Of a stretch of 64,000 bases of DNA, positions 108-10,704 are shown one piece after another. The translations under genes were made by a program, and so were the position numbers. The DNA is from Rhodospirillaceae bacterium (GTDB taxonomy: Bacteria; Pseudomonadota; Alphaproteobacteria; UBA8366). The DNA lies in NCBI GenBank assembly GCA_002722095.1, contig PBKG01000016.1, positions 1 through 64,000 on the forward strand. The letters are read 5' to 3'. Position 1 is the first letter of the stretch. Each line of letters begins with the position of its first letter. The notes beneath the pieces were generated by a model that was not told the origin of the DNA, made no database searches, and worked only from the letters and a program-made list of their open reading frames with translations.

Positions 108-992
108 TTAAATATCGCTCCCGAGCGCATCGGTTTCGATTGTCAGCCGGTTCATCAACCGTTTTTGCGGCCAGTAATCAGCGACCGCGTAATGAAGCGT
201 CGCCCGGTTATCCCAAAAAGCGATCGAATGGTCGCGCCATTGGAAGCGGCACTGAAATTCAGGCCGTTCGTAATGCCGGAAGAGCTCAAGCAGTTTTGCA
301 TCCGATTCCGCCTTCGGCACTCCATCGATCTTGCTGGTAAAGCTTTCGGATACGTACAGGCTCGGTATCCCGGTCACCGCATGGGGACGCACCATGGGGT
401 GGCTAATCGGCGGGTGGTCTTTCGCCATTGCCGCCATGCGCTCGGCATTGTCGCCCTTCCAGCTCCGGGCTTTTTGCGGGCTGCCGTGGAGCTTCATAAA
501 ATCGTGCGTCGCAGTTTTGTCCTGCACATAGGCTTTCATCTCATCCGAGAGCGCCTCGTAGGCTGCGGTCATACTGACGAAGACCGTATCGCCGCCATAG
601 GGCGGCACTTCCTGGGCGTGCAAGATAGACGCGAATTCAGGCTGATCGCGAAAAATCCCGTCGGGGTGGAAATGATTGACGTTGGGTGGGCGTTCCTCGT
701 CATTGACGATCACCGCCACTTCCGGCGCCCCCTCGAGCAACTCGAATGCCGCCTTTCGCGCTTTTCGCAATCGCCCGTAACGACGGGAGAAAGCCGCAAA
801 ATCCGCTGGCGCGATGTCCTGATCGCGAAAAAACAGCACCTGATGGCGCATCAGGGCGAGGTGAATTTCCTTCAGCACTTCGTCATCCGGCATAGGCGCC
901 AATGAAACGTCGGCGACCTCCGCACCGATCACCGGTGTCACCGGCAAAACGGTTATATGCTCGTAAATATCGACGGGCCTGAACATGGACAC
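108..992 (-). CDS. TauD/TfdA-family Fe(II)/2-oxoglutarate dioxygenase (paralogue 1)
   Basis: This 294-residue protein has the usual length and layout of the TauD/TfdA family, which hydroxylates organic substrates using Fe(II), O2 and 2-oxoglutarate. The iron ligands are visible as H109-P-D111 and the distal H267 in WDNRATLH. R278 or R282 would bind the 2-oxoglutarate carboxylate. The N-terminal half carries the family pattern 'GAEV...VLFFRDQ'. It is the first of six such paralogues in the window. The substrate cannot be read from sequence; sulfonates, aryloxyalkanoates and carnitine-like compounds are known for the family. Confidence 0.9.
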   Translation of the reverse strand: MSMFRPVDIYEHITVLPVTPVIGAEVADVSLAPMPDDEVLKEIHLALMRHQVLFFRDQDIAPADFAAFSRRYGRLRKARKAAFELLEGAPEVAVIVNDEERPPNVNHFHPDGIFRDQPEFASILHAQEVPPYGGDTVFVSMTAAYEALSDEMKAYVQDKTATHDFMKLHGSPQKARSWKGDNAERMAAMAKDHPPISHPMVRPHAVTGIPSLYVSESFTSKIDGVPKAESDAKLLELFRHYERPEFQCRFQWRDHSIAFWDNRATLHYAVADYWPQKRLMNRLTIETDALGSDI

Positions 993-1039: not shown

Positions 1040-1936
1040 TCAAAATTTTGACAACGCCGACTGGGCGGCGCGGCGACCCTCTTCGATCGCATCCGCAATC
1101 TGGCCCGAATAATCCTTGCGAACAGCACCGACGGCGAAGAGATTCGGCACCGCACTGGCGAACGCTTCATCGGTTGGAACCAGACCGCCTTCGAGTTTCA
1201 ATAGCTCGGCGACGCAGCCGCTGTTGGGTTCGCTGCCGATAAACGGAAACACACCGCTGCAAGAAATCTCTGCTGGCGCTCCGTTATCCACTCGCCGAAT
1301 TCGCAACCCTGACACTGTGTCTCCGCCAACGATCTCTTCGGCGGTTACGCCATCGACATGATGAATATTGTTCGCTGCCGCCAAGCGCTCGCCATACCGA
1401 GCATCCGCTTTCAGCCCGCTGCGCGTCAGCAATGTGACGTTTCGGCAAAACCCAGCCAACACGAGCGCCTCCTGTCCAGCGGCATCACCTCCGCCGACCA
1501 CCACCACATCTTCGCCTTGGAATATAGGGCCATCGCAGGAGGCGCATTGTGAAACGCCACGACCATCGAATTCAGCTTCACCGGGGATACCGAGCTTTTT
1601 CAATCTCCCACCCGACGCGAGGATGAGCACACTCGCGGAATGTGTCTGCTGAGATGTAGAGATGTGAAAGGCATCTCCCTCGGACATCACTACATTCACC
1701 TCCTCCGGGAGGATATCCACACCATTTCCTACGCAACCCTGCATCGCGTCCATCGCGAGCATCAGGCCGGGCGTGGGGGCTTCAAGACCTTCTACGGTTT
1801 CTACATTGGCGATCTGGCCCCCGAACATCGGCGAAGGCTCCACCAGGCCTATTTTTCGGCCCGCAGACGCCATTTCCGATGCCGCGGTAAGACCGGCCAT
1901 TCCACCCCCAATCGCCAATATGTCGTACGAACCCAT
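1040..1936 (-). CDS. Thioredoxin-reductase-like FAD/NAD(P) oxidoreductase
   Basis: A 298-residue two-domain flavoprotein. It has an N-terminal FAD-binding GGGMAG (residues 10-15), a redox pair C131-A-S-C134 followed by DG as in TrxB (normally CATC), and an NAD(P)-binding VGGGDAAG near residue 147. The start is clear: AGGAGGAGG lies just upstream of the ATG. The C-terminal FAD motif reads VGAVR where TrxB has GD, so an FAD-contacting Asp appears replaced by Ala. It is transcribed divergently from the UGSC selenoprotein across about 100 bp, so it could be that protein's reductase, but this is inference from position. It may also serve another thiol partner. Confidence 0.82.
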   Translation of the reverse strand: MGSYDILAIGGGMAGLTAASEMASAGRKIGLVEPSPMFGGQIANVETVEGLEAPTPGLMLAMDAMQGCVGNGVDILPEEVNVVMSEGDAFHISTSQQTHSASVLILASGGRLKKLGIPGEAEFDGRGVSQCASCDGPIFQGEDVVVVGGGDAAGQEALVLAGFCRNVTLLTRSGLKADARYGERLAAANNIHHVDGVTAEEIVGGDTVSGLRIRRVDNGAPAEISCSGVFPFIGSEPNSGCVAELLKLEGGLVPTDEAFASAVPNLFAVGAVRKDYSGQIADAIEEGRRAAQSALSKF

Positions 1937-1994: not shown

Positions 1995-2039
1995 AGGGAC
2001 TACAATATGTGCAAACGCGCAGACAAAGGAGAATGCGCC

Positions 2040-2585
2040 ATGGCTCAACTGAAAGGCCGTACCATTCGCGTCTTCGATCCGACCGCAAACGCGGCCGACG
2101 AACAGGATGGTCTCGCCACGCGCTTCAACGGGCTCGATGGCAAGGTGATTGGTTTCCTGAACAATACCAAGGACCACACCGACGTCATTTTCGAGGAAGT
2201 CGGCAAGCTCATTCAGGAACGTTTCCCGGAAGCGGAGCTTCGCTTCTACCGCAAGGAAAGCGTTACCGGCATGAAGCCCGAAATGATGGCGGATATGAAG
2301 GCCGAATGCGACGCTGTCGTTACCGGCCTTGGCGATTGAGGATCCTGCACGTCGTGGAGTGTCCATGACAGCATGACTTTCGAACGCGATAACATTCCCA
2401 CCGGCACCATCGTCACCGACGCTTTTTCTGAATACGGCCAAATGCTGACGAAGATGCAAAGTATGGAAAAACTGCCACTGGTGGTGCTTCCCCACCCCAT
2501 CGCCGCCCGACAAGCCGACGAAGTGCGTGACATCGCCCGTGAGGCATTCGAGGAAGTTGTGGGTTCGCTGTTGAGCGCCGGTTAA
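2040..2585 (+). CDS. UGSC-family selenoprotein (selenocysteine at residue 100)
   Basis: Two apparent ORFs are one gene. The frame from ATG 2040 (AGGAG about 9 nt upstream) reaches TGA at 2337-2339 and continues in the same frame to 2585, giving 181 residues with selenocysteine at position 100. The context is GLGD-U-GSCTSW, the signature of the known UGSC family, in which U and the following Cys (here C103) form a probable redox pair. A SECIS-like hairpin begins 6 nt after the TGA. C90 is a further nearby Cys. The substrate is not known. It is followed after 12 bp by a conserved partner gene and lies next to a thioredoxin-reductase-like gene. A nonsense mutation is unlikely because both halves keep a good reading frame and the motif is intact. 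Confidence 0.9.
2337..2339 (+). other. In-frame TGA recoded as selenocysteine
   Basis: The TGA sits in the UGSC motif, and the frame stays open for 82 further codons to TAA at 2583-2585. TGA terminates other genes in the window (for example the genes ending at 29771, 26752 and 33374), so genome-wide reassignment is not the explanation. Selenocysteine insertion would need SelA, SelB, SelC and SelD, none of which are in this window. Confidence 0.88.
2346..2373 (+). promoter_or_regulatory. Bacterial SECIS-like hairpin
   Basis: Downstream of the TGA, GTCGTGG (2351-2357) pairs with CCATGAC (2363-2369) through seven pairs including one G-U. The apical loop is AGTGT (2358-2362). Three more pairs (2346-2348 with 2371-2373) extend the stem below a small internal loop. 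The loop starts 18 nt after the TGA and has G at its second position. This matches the bacterial SECIS rule of a loop about 16-37 nt from UGA with a G in the first two loop bases. Confidence 0.8.
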
Positions 2586-2597
2586 GGGAATTTAGGA

Positions 2598-3656
2598 ATG
2601 GCGGATCAATCGAGCGACGCTCGGCTCATCGAGCTCGCCGAAGACCCCTATGCGATTTACGAGCATTTCGTCGATCAGGGTTGGACCGACGGGCTGCCTG
2701 TTATTCCACCGACCGAAGAGCGCATCGCCGACATGCTGCGCTTTTCCGATCGTGCACCGGATGACGTGATCGTCGAATTGCCCCCCAAAGGCGGACCCGC
2801 AACCGTGCAACACGTTGCCATCAACGCCGCCATGGCTGGGTGCAAACCGGAATATTTGCCGGTGATAATCGCCGCGCTTCAGGCCACCGTAGAGCCGGAA
2901 TACAATCTCTACGGCCGCCAGACGACGACCCACCCTGGCGCGCATCTCGTTATCGTTCACGGACCGGCACGGACCGAACTCGACATCAATTGCCGCCAAA
3001 ACGTTTTCGGTCAGGGTTGGCGCGCGAATGCCACTATTGGACGCGCGCTCCGATTGCTGCTGATGAACGTGGGCGGCGGCCTCCCTGGGATTACAGATAT
3101 GGCCACCCACGGCCATCCTGGGAAGTACTCCTACTGCATCGGCGAGGACGAGGAAAATAGCCCGTGGCCCGGGTTGCACGCAGACCGAGGCTTTGAGGCG
3201 GATTCCAGCGCCGTCACCGTGCTCTGCGCAGAATCGCCCCATAATATCAATGATATGGTCAGCAAAACGCCGGAGCTCTATTTGGGTAGCGCAGCCTCGG
3301 CGATGAGCCATCTCGGCGCCAACGGCCCCTATCGCGGTCGGCTCGATGCGGAGCAAATGCTCGTGATGACCGCGGAATCCGCCCAATGGCTCGACGAACG
3401 AGGATGGGACAAGCAAACGGTCAAGGAATTCATCTTTGAAAATGCCCGTTGCCGCGTCGGCGATCTCCGCGACCGCGGCGGTTGGGGACAAAGTAAGATG
3501 GCCGACTTCATTGACGAAAACGACGACGATGCGTTGGCACCCATCGTTCCTGCGCCGGATCATATCGTCATCGTTGTCGCCGGCGGTCATGGCCGGCATA
3601 TGCAGGCGGTTCTGGCATCTTCTTATTGCAAAAGCGTCACTAAACCGATCACCTAA
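2598..3656 (+). CDS. Conserved UGSC-partner protein of unknown function
   Basis: This 352-residue soluble protein follows the selenoprotein after 12 bp, with GGAATTTAGGA just before the ATG, so the two are very likely co-transcribed. No signal peptide or membrane segment is visible. A repeated 'TDGLPVIPPTEE' opening and a late 'VAGGHGRH' stretch look like conserved family landmarks, but I cannot assign a fold or reaction. It contains several Cys (for example in GCKPEY, INCRQN and VLCAES) without a CxxC pair. By position it is a candidate substrate, chaperone or enzyme partner of the selenoprotein. Confidence 0.85.
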   Translation: MADQSSDARLIELAEDPYAIYEHFVDQGWTDGLPVIPPTEERIADMLRFSDRAPDDVIVELPPKGGPATVQHVAINAAMAGCKPEYLPVIIAALQATVEPEYNLYGRQTTTHPGAHLVIVHGPARTELDINCRQNVFGQGWRANATIGRALRLLLMNVGGGLPGITDMATHGHPGKYSYCIGEDEENSPWPGLHADRGFEADSSAVTVLCAESPHNINDMVSKTPELYLGSAASAMSHLGANGPYRGRLDAEQMLVMTAESAQWLDERGWDKQTVKEFIFENARCRVGDLRDRGGWGQSKMADFIDENDDDALAPIVPAPDHIVIVVAGGHGRHMQAVLASSYCKSVTKPIT

Positions 3657-3814
3657 AGGGACGGAACGGCGGCCAGCTCAATGCAGACATTTATCGGTAC
3701 CTGAGTAAGCGCTGCCCCATTACAGAATCTTGCTTGAAAGTGGCTCCCGTTGAGGAGTTAAATAGCCGTAACATTGACTTCAGAATAATCAGGTCACAGG
3801 GGAAGGAAATCACA

Positions 3815-5017
3815 ATGACCACATCCGACAAACCTACCGCCAAACCGAGCCCGGCACGGCGTAAATTCCTTAAAGGCGCCGGCATTGCCGCAGCCACCGG
3901 CACCGCCGCTCTCGCGCTTGCTGCGTGCGATGACAAAGCGGAAAAAGCCGAAAAAAAGGCTGATAAACCGGCGGCCCCACAGGTTTCCAAAGCGAAGACC
4001 ATCACGCTCAAAGTCCAGACCTCTTGGGGAGCGAAGTCGGTCTTCCAGGATATGGCCAAACAGTACGCCGAACGCGTCGACAAAATGTCCGGCGGCCGCC
4101 TCAAAATCGACCTTTTGCCCGCAGGTGCCGTGGTCAAGGCGTTTCAAGTTCAGGACGCCTGCCACAAGGGCGTGCTCGACGGCGCCCATACGGTGACCGC
4201 CTATTGGTACGGCAAAAACAAGGCCGCGTCGCTTTTCGGTACAGGCCCGGTGTTTGGCGCCAACGCATCGCAAATTCTTGCCTGGATCCATTATGGCGGC
4301 GGCAAAGAGCTGTACCGCGAGTTGGTACAGGATATTCTGAAGCTCAATTTGGTTGGCTTCTTCTGTATGCCGATGCCGACCCAACCGCTTGGCTGGTTCA
4401 AGAACGAAATCAAAACCGCCGATGATATGAAGGATTTGAAATATCGTACGGTCGGCCTTGCCACGGATATCATGCAGGGCATGGGCCTGAAAGTGACCCA
4501 GCTGCCTGGCGGCGAAATCATACCGGCACTCGAGCGTAACGTGATCGAGGCCTTCGAGTTCAATAATCCCACATCCGATCGCCAGTTCGGTGCGCAGGAC
4601 GTTTCCAAGACCTACATGATGGGGAGTTATCATCAGGCCGCCGAGTTCTTCGAAGTGATCTTCAATAAGGACAGGTTCAACAAACTCGCGCCCGAATTGC
4701 AGGCGATACTGGAATACGGTGCGGAAGCGGCGAACACGGCCAATTACGGCTTCGCCATGGATAGCTATTCCAAGGACCTTCAAGGACTAATTAACAAGGA
4801 CAAGGTCAACGTCTACCGTACCCCCGAAGGGGTGATGCAGGCACAACTCGCCTCTTGGGATACCGTGCTGAAAAAACTCGAGTCCGACCCCTTCTTCGCC
4901 AAGGTGGTGAAAAGCCAGAAGGAATGGTCGCACCGGGTCGCGTTCTACGATCTCATGAACGCCGCCGATTACAAGCTCGCCTTCAAGCATTACTTCCCCG
5001 GCGAGATCAACTTCTAG
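3815..5017 (+). CDS. dctP: TRAP transporter solute-binding protein (TakP-like DctP)
   Basis: A 400-residue periplasmic receptor of a TRAP transporter. The start at 3815 is supported by GGAAGGA at 3801-3807. The N terminus has a twin-arginine signal (RRKFLK, residues 15-20), a hydrophobic run and LAAC with C38, so it may be a Tat-exported lipoprotein. The mature part carries the TakP/chloroaromatic-type motif LPGGEIIPALE followed by acidic and aromatic ligand residues. This subfamily binds 2-oxo acids or other carboxylates with Na+. The membrane genes dctQ and dctM follow. The ligand is uncertain; an organic acid is most likely. Confidence 0.9.
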   Translation: MTTSDKPTAKPSPARRKFLKGAGIAAATGTAALALAACDDKAEKAEKKADKPAAPQVSKAKTITLKVQTSWGAKSVFQDMAKQYAERVDKMSGGRLKIDLLPAGAVVKAFQVQDACHKGVLDGAHTVTAYWYGKNKAASLFGTGPVFGANASQILAWIHYGGGKELYRELVQDILKLNLVGFFCMPMPTQPLGWFKNEIKTADDMKDLKYRTVGLATDIMQGMGLKVTQLPGGEIIPALERNVIEAFEFNNPTSDRQFGAQDVSKTYMMGSYHQAAEFFEVIFNKDRFNKLAPELQAILEYGAEAANTANYGFAMDSYSKDLQGLINKDKVNVYRTPEGVMQAQLASWDTVLKKLESDPFFAKVVKSQKEWSHRVAFYDLMNAADYKLAFKHYFPGEINF

Positions 5018-5110: not shown

Positions 5111-5713
5111 ATGGAAAAATTCATTCTCTTGATCGATACCGTAACCGCCTGGGTGGGCAAGGCATTTGCCTGGTGCATCTTGGTGATGACGTTCGGCGTC
5201 GGTTATGAGGTTTTCGTCCGCTACGTATTGCGTGAACCGACAAGCTGGGCCTTCGATATCAGCTACATGATGTATGGGGCTCTTTTTATGATGGCCGGCG
5301 CCTACACCTTGTCCCGTGACGGCCATGTGCGAGGCGATGTTCTGTATCGCCTCTGGAAGCCGAAGACACAGGCAATCATCGAATTCATCCTCTACTTCTT
5401 GTTTTTTTTCCCGGGCGTTATCGCTCTGATCTTCGCGGGTTGGGACTATGCGGCGGAATCCTGGTCCTACAATTCGGGCAGGGGCGAAGTCAGCGTCATG
5501 AGCCCGGCCAATGTACCGATTTTTCAATTCAAGACCATAATCCCGATTGCCGGTTTTCTGCTGTTTATCCAAGGGATTGCCCAACTCTGCCGCTGTATTA
5601 TTTGCATTCGTACCGGCGAATGGCCGGCCCATCTCGAGGACGTGGAAGAGATGGAAACCATGATGCAACACGCCCATGACTACGGGTCCGCCGACGAGGG
5701 AGAAAAGAAATGA
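5111..5713 (+). CDS. dctQ: TRAP transporter small membrane subunit DctQ
   Basis: A 200-residue inner-membrane protein with about four hydrophobic segments, matching the small TRAP subunit. It contains the family pattern 'YEVFVRYVLREPTSWAFD' after the first helix. It is followed by dctM with a 4-nt overlap (ATGA at 5710), showing translational coupling. The ribosome-binding site is weak (AAAGCGA). It pairs with DctM to form the Na+-driven importer for the ligand delivered by DctP. Confidence 0.92.
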   Translation: MEKFILLIDTVTAWVGKAFAWCILVMTFGVGYEVFVRYVLREPTSWAFDISYMMYGALFMMAGAYTLSRDGHVRGDVLYRLWKPKTQAIIEFILYFLFFFPGVIALIFAGWDYAAESWSYNSGRGEVSVMSPANVPIFQFKTIIPIAGFLLFIQGIAQLCRCIICIRTGEWPAHLEDVEEMETMMQHAHDYGSADEGEKK

Positions 5714-7065
5714 CCGACCCTCAAGTCGCGGTGCTGATGCTGGGCATTTTTATCTTCACCATCCTGCTGGGTTTCCCGATCAGCTTTACGTTGATGGCGA
5801 TGGGCGTGGTGTTCGGCTACTACGCCTACTACGACGCCGAACGCATGCAGTCGATTTTCGACAACCGAATCTTCGATCTGTTCGTCAATCAGACCTATTC
5901 GGTGATGGCAAATGATGTGCTGACCGCCGTCCCGCTGTTTCTATTCATGGGCTATATCGTCGAGCGAGCTAATATCGTCGACCGGTTGTTCTTCACTTTG
6001 CAGATCGCGATGCGCCGGATGCCGGGCTCGATGGCGATCGCCGCTCTCGCCACTTGTGCGATGTTTGCAACCGCCACCGGAATCATCGGCGCCGTCGTCA
6101 CTCTAATGGGATTGCTCGCGTTCCCGGCGATGTTGAAGGCGCGTTACGACACCAGCTTTTCCGCCGGGGTGATCTGTGCCGGCGGCTGTCTCGGCATTCT
6201 GATCCCACCCAGCATCATGCTGATCGTTTATTCCGCCACCTCCAATGTGTCGGTGGTGAAGCTGTATGCGGGAGCGATCATTCCGGGCTTCATGCTGGCC
6301 GGCCTCTATATTCTCTATGTCATCGGCCGCGCGGCGTTGAACCCGAGCCTGGCACCGAAACCCAAAGAAGAGGATATCGAAGACACATCGCTCGGCGGCG
6401 TAATTTGGATGATGGCGACGTCGTTTTTCCCGCTCGCCTTTCTTATCCTCTCGGTATTGGGTGCGATCCTTTTCGGCCTCGCAACGCCTTCGGAGGCCGC
6501 CGCGGTCGGCGCCCTGGGCGGGTTATTGCTGGCCACTTGCTATCGCGCGCTTAGTTGGGAGCGTTTGAAAGAATCGGTTTATCTCACCGTCCGAACTTCG
6601 GCCATGGTGTGTTGGCTTTTTGTCGGCTCCTGGACCTTCGCCTCGGTATTCTCCTATCTGGGCGGGCACGACATCATCAAGGATTTCGTACTGTCGATGA
6701 ATCTCACACCTTTGATGTTCCTGATCCTTGCGCAATTGATCATTTTCCTGCTCGGTTGGCCGCTGGAATGGAGTGAAATCATAATTATCTTCGTTCCCAT
6801 TTTCCTGCCGATGCTCGGACACTTCGACGTCGACCCGCTGTTCTTCGGCATTCTGGTCGCGCTTAACCTCCAGACGTCTTTTCTTACGCCCCCAATGGCG
6901 ATGGCCGCCTACTATTTGAAAGGTGTGGCACCGCCCCATGTGCAATTGATGGAAATCTTCAAAGGCGTAATGCCGTTCCTCGCCATGGTCCTGCTTGCGA
7001 TGGTTATTCTTTACAACTTCCCCGAGATCGCGCTTTGGCTGCCAAATCAACTCTACGGCAAGTAA
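5710..7065 (+). CDS. dctM: TRAP transporter large permease subunit DctM
   Basis: A 451-residue, highly hydrophobic protein of normal DctM length with about 12 membrane segments. It has the typical 'AMFATATGIIGAVVTLMG' and 'GGCLGILIPPSIMLIVYS' stretches, the latter being the proline-rich re-entrant hairpin region of this ion-transporter family. It overlaps dctQ by 4 nt and is followed by the amidase gene 16 bp downstream, so import and amide cleavage may be one pathway. Confidence 0.94.
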   Translation: MTDPQVAVLMLGIFIFTILLGFPISFTLMAMGVVFGYYAYYDAERMQSIFDNRIFDLFVNQTYSVMANDVLTAVPLFLFMGYIVERANIVDRLFFTLQIAMRRMPGSMAIAALATCAMFATATGIIGAVVTLMGLLAFPAMLKARYDTSFSAGVICAGGCLGILIPPSIMLIVYSATSNVSVVKLYAGAIIPGFMLAGLYILYVIGRAALNPSLAPKPKEEDIEDTSLGGVIWMMATSFFPLAFLILSVLGAILFGLATPSEAAAVGALGGLLLATCYRALSWERLKESVYLTVRTSAMVCWLFVGSWTFASVFSYLGGHDIIKDFVLSMNLTPLMFLILAQLIIFLLGWPLEWSEIIIIFVPIFLPMLGHFDVDPLFFGILVALNLQTSFLTPPMAMAAYYLKGVAPPHVQLMEIFKGVMPFLAMVLLAMVILYNFPEIALWLPNQLYGK

Positions 7066-7081: not shown

Positions 7082-8416
7082 GTGAGTTTGGCCGAATTAA
7101 ATGCACTCGATGCCGCCAAAGCATTGGAAGAAGGCGCATTTTCAGCTTTGGAGCTTACTCAGGCCTGCCTCGATCGTATCGACGAAATTGACGGTGATAT
7201 CGAAGCCTGGACCCATATCGACCGAGACCATGCTTTGGCTCAAGCCGGGGCCGCAGACGAGGTACGCCAAGCGGGACTGCCAACAGGACCGCTGTTCGGA
7301 TTACCTGTCGCAGTAAAAGATATATTCGATACGCACGACATGCCGACCGAATGCGGCACACCACTTTATGCGGCACGAACACCAAGCTCGGATTCCACCG
7401 TCGTTGCGCTATTACGTCAGGCAGGCGCAATCATTATCGGTAAGAGCGTGACCACCGAACTAGCCATGTACGGACCCGGTAAGACGAAAAACCCTCATGA
7501 CCGGGAACGCACACCGGGTGGGTCCTCAAGCGGATCGGCCGCCGCGGTCGCCTCGGGCATGGTGCCGCTTGCGATCGGCAGCCAGACCAACGGATCGATG
7601 ATCCGGCCCGCCTCATTTTGCGGGACCGTCGGCTTCAAACCATCCCACGGACGCATATCGCGAACAGGCGCGCTATTGCTTTCGCGCGCACTCGATACGG
7701 TGGGTGTGTTCGGACGTACAATTGCCGATGTAGCGCTAATCGGCGACGCGCTCGCACATTACGATGCCCAAGACCCGGACATGCGCCCCCTCGCACCGCC
7801 GCGCCTGCTGGAAACAGCACTTAGCGAGCCTCCGGTCGAGCCGATGTTTGCCTTCGTTAAGTCACCGGTTTGGGAAAAAGCCCGGGATGACGTCCAGGCG
7901 GGTTTCAGCGAGATCGTCGACGCACTCGGGAACCAATGCGACGAGGTGACGTTGCCCGAACCGTTCGACCAAGGTGTCGATCTTCATCGCACAATTATGA
8001 TCTCGGACATTGCGCGAAATATCGGCCCACTCTACGACCGAGGAGCCGAACAATTGAGCCCGCAACTCCGCGAGATGGTCGAAGCAGGCCGTGACGTACG
8101 GGCAGTAGATTACGCCAACGCAATCGAGCTTCGCGAAACGCTGAATGCGGGCCTCGATCAGATTTTCGCCCGCTATGATGCGATCGTCACCCCGGCAGCA
8201 ACAGGCGAAGCGCCGGAAACACTCGACTATACCGGCAACCCGGTCTTCTGTTCGCTTTGGACTTATTGCGGGGTGCCGGCGATCAGCCTACCGTTGCTAA
8301 GCGGATCGAACGACATGCCGATTGGCGTTCAATTGGTCGGCCAACGGGGCCATGATGGCCGGTTGTTGCGCACGGCGCGGTGGATGGCCGATCGACTGGC
8401 CAAGGAAGAAGGATAA
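7082..8416 (+). CDS. Amidase-signature family hydrolase
   Basis: The start is GTG at 7082, supported by AGGAGGT at 7069-7075, giving 444 residues. The amidase-signature triad is visible: K79 in AVKDIF, the cis-Ser in GGSSSGSAA (residues 146-154) and the nucleophile S172 in TNGSMIRPAS. The family hydrolyses carboxamides through an acyl-enzyme in the cytoplasm. It sits 16 bp after dctM and probably belongs to that operon, hinting that the imported compound is an amide or that the product is an organic acid. No GatB or GatC partner is nearby, so a GatA role is unlikely. Confidence 0.88.
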   Translation: MSLAELNALDAAKALEEGAFSALELTQACLDRIDEIDGDIEAWTHIDRDHALAQAGAADEVRQAGLPTGPLFGLPVAVKDIFDTHDMPTECGTPLYAARTPSSDSTVVALLRQAGAIIIGKSVTTELAMYGPGKTKNPHDRERTPGGSSSGSAAAVASGMVPLAIGSQTNGSMIRPASFCGTVGFKPSHGRISRTGALLLSRALDTVGVFGRTIADVALIGDALAHYDAQDPDMRPLAPPRLLETALSEPPVEPMFAFVKSPVWEKARDDVQAGFSEIVDALGNQCDEVTLPEPFDQGVDLHRTIMISDIARNIGPLYDRGAEQLSPQLREMVEAGRDVRAVDYANAIELRETLNAGLDQIFARYDAIVTPAATGEAPETLDYTGNPVFCSLWTYCGVPAISLPLLSGSNDMPIGVQLVGQRGHDGRLLRTARWMADRLAKEEG

Positions 8417-9608: not shown

Positions 9609-9822
9609 GGCTGTCTCGCTTTACCTCTCGAATCCCAAAATGTTGCTCGGCACGTTATCCGATTTCGCGATGAAGACCGAGAAACTTAATGCCACATAGG
9701 CATTTATCTTTACTCTCTTTGAAGATTACCACCATCGAGATGGCCTTCGCCATTGCCCAACATATCGCCTTTTTGCAACCGGCCAATTGCGCTACTCTTT
9801 CCATCGAGTGAGGAGAAATCGC

Positions 9823-10704
9823 ATGGGCCAGCAGTTCGGCATTATCCCGACCGGCAAGGCGCTCGGCGCCGACATCATTGATTTTGACATCCACAAAATG
9901 GATGAGGACGACGCGACGCGTATTCGGTCCGCTTGGCTCGAGCATCTGGTTTTACGCTTTCGAGGACTGGACTTCGGTGATGCGGAACAGGTGCGCTTCA
10001 CCAAGTTCTTGGGAGATCCCGAGCTATCCCCCCGCGCACTTTGCACCGGCGAGGAACTGGTCGAAAATCACCCAGAAATCGGTGTTATCAGCAATGTGCT
10101 CGACGAAAAGACCGGCGAGCCCATCGGCACCCTCGGTGACGGCGAATGCATGTGGCACACGGACATGTCCTATATCGAAAAACCCCCCACCGCGAGCATG
10201 CTGCATGCGCTGGAACTACCTCCAGCAGGCACCGGAGGTGATACGGAATTTCTCTGCATGTACACGGCGCTGGAGACGCTCGATCCGGCCATCGTCGAGC
10301 GTATCGAAGGCAAACTACTGCGCCACGAAAACGTGACGCTCTCCAGCGGCGGCGTACGCAAGGGTATGGAAGACAAAATTCCCACCTCCGGCGATGTCCG
10401 CGACTGGCAAGGGCCATCGCATCCGATCATTCGTGTGCATCCGGAAACAGGCCGTAGATGCCTGTTCCTCGGACGCCGTATCCACGCCTATATCGAAAGT
10501 ATGGAAGTGGAGGAAAGCGAGGAAATCCTCGATGCCATCTGGGCGCATATCATGCAGCCCGAATTTTGCTGGCAGCAGGTTTGGAAACTCGGCGACATGG
10601 TGCTCTGGGACAATCGCTGCGTCATGCATCGGCGCGATGCCTTCGACCCCGCCACACGACGGATCATGCACCGCACCCAACTCAAAGGCGACTTGGTCAC
10701 TTAA
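9823..10704 (+). CDS. TauD/TfdA-family dioxygenase (paralogue 2)
   Basis: The start at 9823 is chosen because GAGGAG lies about 8 nt upstream; an in-frame extension to 9787 lacks such a site. The product has 293 residues. Iron ligands are in WHTDMSY (H-x-D) and in WDNRCVMH, with the cofactor-binding Arg in RRIMHRTQ. The 'HPIIRVHPETGRRCLFLG' stretch is typical of the TfdA side of the family. It is followed 89 bp later by an argininosuccinate-lyase-like gene on the same strand. The substrate is unknown. Confidence 0.9.
   Translation: MGQQFGIIPTGKALGADIIDFDIHKMDEDDATRIRSAWLEHLVLRFRGLDFGDAEQVRFTKFLGDPELSPRALCTGEELVENHPEIGVISNVLDEKTGEPIGTLGDGECMWHTDMSYIEKPPTASMLHALELPPAGTGGDTEFLCMYTALETLDPAIVERIEGKLLRHENVTLSSGGVRKGMEDKIPTSGDVRDWQGPSHPIIRVHPETGRRCLFLGRRIHAYIESMEVEESEEILDAIWAHIMQPEFCWQQVWKLGDMVLWDNRCVMHRRDAFDPATRRIMHRTQLKGDLVT

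Follow-up and report, generated by a model that had tools for sequence, protein, structure and literature searches.

The window analysed here, a stretch of 64,000 nucleotides of contig PBKG01000016.1 from a Rhodospirillaceae bacterium (assembly GCA_002722095.1), contains close to its start a gene at positions 2040-2585 that almost certainly encodes a selenoprotein of the UGSC family, its UGA being read as selenocysteine (Sec) with the help of a selenocysteine insertion sequence (SECIS) hairpin downstream. The gene is a single frame of 181 codons, which starts with ATG at 2040, runs in frame through TGA at 2337-2339 and stops with TAA at 2583-2585, and its read-through product carries the sequence GLGD-U-GSCTSW. 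The original prediction, a reading of the DNA letters, had described two open reading frames (ORFs) of the same frame meeting at this TGA in this context, which the sequence confirmed. The gene is followed by a gene for a second protein, here called the partner, and is surrounded by genes for redox, transport and hydrolytic functions.

The UGSC gene and its in-frame TGA

Searches with profile hidden Markov models (HMMs), proposed together with the original prediction, upheld its assignment to the UGSC family, as the read-through protein scored 164.5 bits against PF24696 (curated cut-off 25; E 3.4e-48) and 139.4 bits against NF041046 (curated cut-off 125). The gene resembles the known family in motif, length and in-frame TGA, and no difference was found within the gene itself. 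In the available passages of five publications (PMC2398784, PMC13188914, PMC9312934, PMC5029168 and PMC9402790) UGSC figures as a recognised family of selenoproteins whose function has not been established, which agrees with its earlier description as essentially undescribed. These passages give 33 UGSC proteins in 26 organisms (PMC5029168) and report that UGSC made up 8.2% of the selenoprotein genes in a marine survey (PMC9402790), and a 2026 review places UGSC among selenoproteins whose functions are largely uncharacterised (PMC13188914). Added here to the known family are a regular partner, fusions and a link to GrdB/PrdB, the Sec subunit of glycine and proline reductase, none of which, nor the size of the family, was part of the original prediction.

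Standard gene calling had been expected to cut such genes in two, and the protein records reflect this. Of about 5.8 billion proteins searched, 33 passed as homologues of UGSC, and 30 of these are only 99-118 residues long; one (P0002) is the upstream half of the window gene itself. Just ahead of the Sec column, 14 of the 16 aligned homologues stop, and the remaining two read through with Cys (P0034) or Trp (P0003) at the Sec position. P0003 comes from a single contig of 1,164 bases and is known from its protein, not its codon. Because gene callers cut UGSC genes in this way, most of this large family, whose members are probably catabolic enzymes, stays hidden.

The 7-bp hairpin of the original prediction (stem GTCGTGG/CCATGAC) was found at its expected place, with 11 nt separating the TGA from the first stem base at 2351. 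In the alternative 8-bp stem the loop begins 19 nt past the TGA, within the distance range of 16-37 nt for bacterial SECIS elements that was taken over from the original prediction. The fold of the window sequence is unexceptional by itself (64 nt, minimum free energy (MFE) -17 kcal/mol, z -1.09, equalled by 24 of 200 dinucleotide shuffles), the MFE of the whole region has a z of -0.6 against synonymous recodings, the 81-codon frame downstream stayed open in 100 of 2000 random base shuffles, and the case for a selenoprotein is consequently a comparative one. Only 3 of 100 synonymous recodings matched the quality of the window hairpin.

For this comparison, UGSC copies were collected with a read-through HMM from 80 loci that carry relatives of the partner, six plasmid loci and the window. 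A score of at least 60 was reached by 93 copies, from which a motif filter removed two (the Cys copy of locus L004 and a piece of the frame-shifted copy of L014), leaving 84 copies with TGA and 7 with a Cys codon. Cys replaces Sec in eight copies overall (L001, L004-L006, L022, L024, L052 and L073, the last from Sphingomonadales). When only the copy closest to the best partner match is counted, 65 in all, a single TGA is present in 60, four have Cys (L022, L024, L052 and L073) and that of L014 is split. Frame shifts or errors of assembly have broken the L014 copy (L014:8428-8938) across frames, and its middle piece contains the TGA. Hairpins within SECIS distance were each compared with 100 synonymous recodings, which gave a mean z of -2.22 for the 84 TGA copies versus -0.62 for the 7 Cys copies; five or fewer recodings were as good in 67% of the former and in none of the latter. 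The 84 TGA-copy sequences align without gaps, and the 8-pair stem is paired in 89.2% of cells versus 81.6% in shuffles. Both sides have changed in 34 stem cells versus 9.3 in shuffles, a value reached by none of 500 shuffles, although kinship among sequences can beat shuffles without any structure. One example is pair 21-27, which is G-C in 61 sequences and C-G in 19. When the opposite column of each pair was slid by 1-3 positions, at most 51.2% of cells were paired, though the slid versions reached similar values on two lesser measures. Past the TGA, the codons of the window and of locus L007 differ with a nonsynonymous proportion (pn) of 0.145 and a synonymous proportion (ps) of 0.655, and purifying selection, judged from this comparison, acts on them.

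A true stop at this TGA (two genes or a pseudogene), or a global reassignment of TGA, is very improbable. Gene callers do end at the TGA and the window fold alone is not significant. Against these points stand the TGA at the same codon in 84 copies, the SECIS hairpin and the selection downstream; in addition, TGA is the commonest terminator of the partner frames (54 of 117) and the rpoB frames listed have no internal stop. The expectation that would have spoken against a selenoprotein, homologues that end at this TGA and lack downstream similarity, does not hold, since the part past the TGA is conserved. The TGA, the SECIS hairpin at a constant distance from it and the downstream conservation, which most related copies share, together support the reading as a selenoprotein of 181 residues.

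The window itself contains no tRNA-Sec above the gathering score and no match to the SelA or SelB of a relative. In the nearest relative (G001, the genome of L007, a Rhodospirillaceae metagenome-assembled genome (MAG)) tRNA-Sec, selB and selA lie adjacent and SelD is also present. Among 14 genomes reached from 15 chosen loci, SelB was above cut-off in 11, SelA in the same 11 and SelD in 12, and an in-frame TGA in 10 of the 13 above-cut-off SelD matches served as positive control. Two genomes (G010 and G013) have one and two UGSC matches, all of the Cys type and none with TGA, and no SelA, SelB or SelD above cut-off; in G006 (1.9 Mb, rpoB missing) SelD was the only one of the three. A Paracoccus ferrooxidans plasmid carries an annotated selB (L003:11955-13730) at a distance of about 4.4 kb from a UGSC gene that contains a TGA.

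The partner protein and the gene neighbourhood

The partner has no match to any Pfam or NCBIfam family at E 0.001, and 7,021 of 7,998 candidates scored were homologues. Its loci were scanned with two peptide patterns and the best 80 of 588 relatives were taken, so the sample leans to close relatives of the window partner. In 65 of these 80 loci a UGSC gene lies no more than 2 kb from the best partner match (52 upstream, 13 downstream), and in 59 of the 65 a gap of 3-241 nt separates the two matches; in another four loci UGSC lies farther away. The partner also adjoins UGSC in all six plasmid loci opened. The two proteins are also found fused: L006 has a fusion of the Cys form, whereas in L002 and P0063 the fusion lies behind a TGA. 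According to the passages available, PMC2398784 names a "UGSC/Unknown_1 fusion", which may involve the same partner. Like the selenoprotein itself, the pairing emerges from comparison among loci, and UGSC and the product of 2598-3656 very probably work as one system.

Among 93 partner sequences the invariant residues include G32, R149, E183 and G329, and 92 of the sequences have C82. The AlphaFold2 (AF2) model of the partner is confident (predicted local distance difference test (pLDDT) 94.4) and found no convincing match among solved structures. The TAA stop of the window partner (3654-3656) lies about 16 codons ahead of the ends of close relatives, and the frame past it (3654-3701) still reads RDGTAASSMQTF, resembling their KDGTP...F tail; the early stop reflects either a nonsense mutation of recent date or a mistake in the assembly.

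Table 1. Features of the UGSC locus in the window
Feature	Position	Strand	Basis or remark
TauD/TfdA-family dioxygenase	108..992	-	PF02668; beside the cluster in L007 too (tblastx segment 82% identical)
Flavoprotein resembling thioredoxin reductase, with CASC, divergent from UGSC; putative source of reductant	1040..1936	-	PF07992
AAAGGAG, Shine-Dalgarno-like, 8 nt 5' of the ATG	2025..2031	+	read from sequence
Predicted gene for a selenoprotein of the UGSC family, 181 residues, Sec at position 100	2040..2585	+	read-through translation; PF24696 3.4e-48; NF041046 above cut-off; 78% identity to L007 UGSC
In-frame TGA, predicted Sec codon of the U-G-S-C motif	2337..2339	+	TGA in 84 aligned copies; Cys in 8 copies
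Predicted SECIS hairpin, stem of 8 bp (loop GTG) or 7 bp (loop AGTGT); loop 19 nt past TGA	2351..2369	+	recoding and covariation tests
Partner protein, 352 residues; begins 12 nt past the UGSC stop	2598..3656	+	no Pfam/NCBIfam family
Tripartite ATP-independent periplasmic (TRAP) transporter solute-binding protein (DctP)	3815..5017	+	PF03480; in L007 too
TRAP small permease (DctQ)	5111..5713	+	PF04290
TRAP large permease (DctM)	5710..7065	+	PF06808; in L007 too
Amidase, start codon unsettled (ORF list: 6995)	7082..8416	+	PF01425; in L007 too

The cluster of the window (TauD, thioredoxin-reductase-like (TrxR-like), UGSC, partner, TRAP, amidase; Table 1) is kept in L007. The TrxR-like product reached 208 bits against TIGR01292, under the cut-off of 343. 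A second ORF resembling the TauD-family gene is located at 9787-10701 (phmmer 1.7e-28). Neighbours were surveyed in the window and 86 loci, 87 sources in total, and the resulting numbers are raw counts and lower bounds. TrxR-like genes were found in 7 of the 87, five by ORF calls and two as annotated trxB in L004 and L005; this count is a lower bound because ORF calling had missed the two annotated ones. Other neighbours are TctC receptors (16 sources), crotonase (13), CoA-transferase III (10) and MmgE/PrpD (7). Together these genes suggest that varied organic acids are taken up and broken down, and this favours a catabolic enzyme over an antioxidant. One organism with a UGSC-partner pair beside TrxB, its UGSC gene containing the TGA, is Neobacillus bataviensis LMG 21833 (L075).

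UGSC copies in a Chloroflexota genome

The largest number of UGSC genes described here comes from a 5.0-Mb groundwater Chloroflexota MAG (G005, the source of L026), in which 150 of 208 candidates were scored and all 150 passed the PF24696 cut-off, so that it has at least 150 matches. An in-frame TGA is present in 146 of them and absent from four, its position having been read in the best 30, and 95 matches lie within open frames of at least 540 residues, the size of a fusion, by tabulated count. All of the best 30 copies have U in the motif; the partner is fused in 8, alongside in 19 and not shown in 3. Their pairwise identity has a median of 34% and a maximum of 72%, which argues for old paralogues and against assembly duplicates. 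The 30 hairpins have a mean z of -2.25, and for 16 of them five or fewer of 100 recodings were as good. The UGSC motif pattern occurs 128 times in this genome versus 18 times for the reversed control, and rpoB is present as one copy, in one frame, on one contig. No tRNA-Sec was found in G005, the best match being tRNA-Ser, and an error in the MAG is a possible source of the copy number. At least 40 of 119 genomes of the same class have UGSC, with at most 26 candidates scored per genome.

According to the passages available of PMC13188914, which warn of co-assembled strains, the largest published selenoproteome of a bacterium comprises 63 selenoprotein genes. The 146 copies with in-frame TGA in one MAG would be more than twice this figure. 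A groundwater Betaproteobacteria MAG (G003, the genome of L010 and L013) has 32 UGSC matches.

Predicted fold and possible function

The structure of UGSC was modelled with AF2 from an alignment of 79 sequences, chosen by a score above 100 and by length with plasmid rows excluded, which gave a pLDDT of 92.8 and a predicted template modelling score (pTM) of 0.85. The model has the order b-a-b-a-b-Sec-a-b-a-b-a, with five strands alternating with helices and Sec100 between the third strand (92-98) and helix 101-116, and it aligns with Rossmann/flavodoxin-like chains. In a thioredoxin-type fold, UxxC follows the first strand. UGSC shares the UxxC redox motif with thioredoxin-like selenoproteins but differs in this predicted order, and its fold is therefore predicted to be Rossmann-like and not thioredoxin-like. 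This disagrees with the thioredoxin-like fold suggested for UGSC in the passage available of the 2008 Global Ocean Sampling (GOS) paper.

Matches to the GrdB/PrdB family (PF07355) were present in 11 of the 14 genomes. The GrdB/PrdB sequences read show, like UGSC, a strand such as D-A-V-V, Sec, a helix and then a strand resembling -GIPT-, and their short forms have UxxC as UGSC does. Profile comparison by hhalign placed Sec on Sec at 95.5% (P 1.5e-8, a single comparison) and at 93.3% with the Sec column masked; the controls remained at or below 0.6% (20 column-shuffled profiles), at 0.9% (TrxR) and at 0.2% (partner). The window protein (P0001) does not match the PF07355 model: it hit only PF24696 at E 0.001, and none of the four families found at E up to 1 was PF07355. 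Common ancestry with the Sec domain of GrdB/PrdB is thus likely, as far as profiles can tell, and UGSC is taken as a remote relative of this domain and not as a member of the family.

Taken as a whole, these observations lead us to lean towards a catabolic role, in which Sec-containing UGSC and its partner would form one two-subunit reductive enzyme for imported organic acids that is recharged by thioredoxin. The chemistry is inferred from homology and neighbours, and reductive cleavage of a C-X bond in carboxylates is a tentative proposal. The TRAP transporter, and the amidase, would supply an organic acid, which the partner would bind or activate. Sec100 of the Rossmann-like, GrdB/PrdB-resembling domain could then attack the substrate and help to break the C-X bond reductively, the selenide being released by Cys103 or an outside thiol, and the divergent TrxR-like flavoprotein may reset the enzyme through a thioredoxin.

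Several observations weigh against this reading. Ser replaces Cys103 (UGSS) in 3 of the 79 aligned UGSC copies, and no TrxR-like gene was seen in 80 of the 87 sources. The 80 loci, having the highest similarity to the window partner, do not form an even sample, and 11 of them are without UGSC, four of these having the partner at a contig end. The absence of Sec genes from G013 may reflect incompleteness, since this genome is also without rpoB, which leaves only G010 as a solid negative. The GrdB/PrdB profile consists of 10 sequences, and an earlier one of 9 short forms gave 74.6%. Finally, the partner profile reached 0.1% in hhalign against one GrdE-like sequence, an ORF upstream of GrdB in L087 that we take to be GrdE from its position. 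A GrdE-like partner, as in GrdB/PrdB systems, is accordingly not seen for UGSC in this one comparison, and GrdE/PrdA-type pyruvoyl chemistry cannot be extrapolated to it.

Two other functions have to be considered. UGSC could be a general thiol-disulfide oxidoreductase or antioxidant with the thioredoxin-like fold of the 2008 GOS paper, the partner being a client or regulator; the UxxC motif and the TrxR-like neighbours in 7 of 87 sources would suit this role. It is nevertheless unlikely in view of the modelled strand order and its Rossmann/flavodoxin-like alignments, the profile similarity to GrdB/PrdB, the frequency of transporters and acyl-CoA genes as neighbours and the at least 150 UGSC matches in one genome. 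Alternatively, the pair may be a non-redox enzyme on organic acids (lyase, isomerase or hydrolase) that uses Sec or Cys as nucleophile, with thioredoxin merely keeping Sec reduced. Sec usually serves redox turnover and is, as a rule, selected for it, and the likeness to the reductases GrdB/PrdB and the second Cys, kept in 76 of 79 copies, also speak against this possibility, to which we give about one chance in four.

The preferred reading, a reductive two-subunit enzyme, has a wider and more speculative form, for which the odds are distinctly below even. UGSC and its partner might represent a large unrecognised branch of GrdB/PrdB-type selenoenzymes outside amino-acid fermentation, performing Sec-dependent, thioredoxin-driven cleavage of many organic acids, with far more than 100 divergent paralogues in one Chloroflexota genome. 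If true, no reported bacterial selenoproteome would come near that of this genome in size. The regular partner, the resemblance to GrdB/PrdB and the N. bataviensis genome, in which TrxB adjoins the pair, make the function testable.

Further variants of these proteins were observed. The UGSS copies are located at L018:8342-8851, L019:8230-8736 and L034:716-1237. A divergent subfamily with the motif UG[SA]CTPA lies beside lower-scoring partner paralogues (L039:3494-4012, L056:3073-3594 and L084:914-1453), and short PrdB-like proteins with U-P-x-C occur in many of the same genomes (L089-L098).
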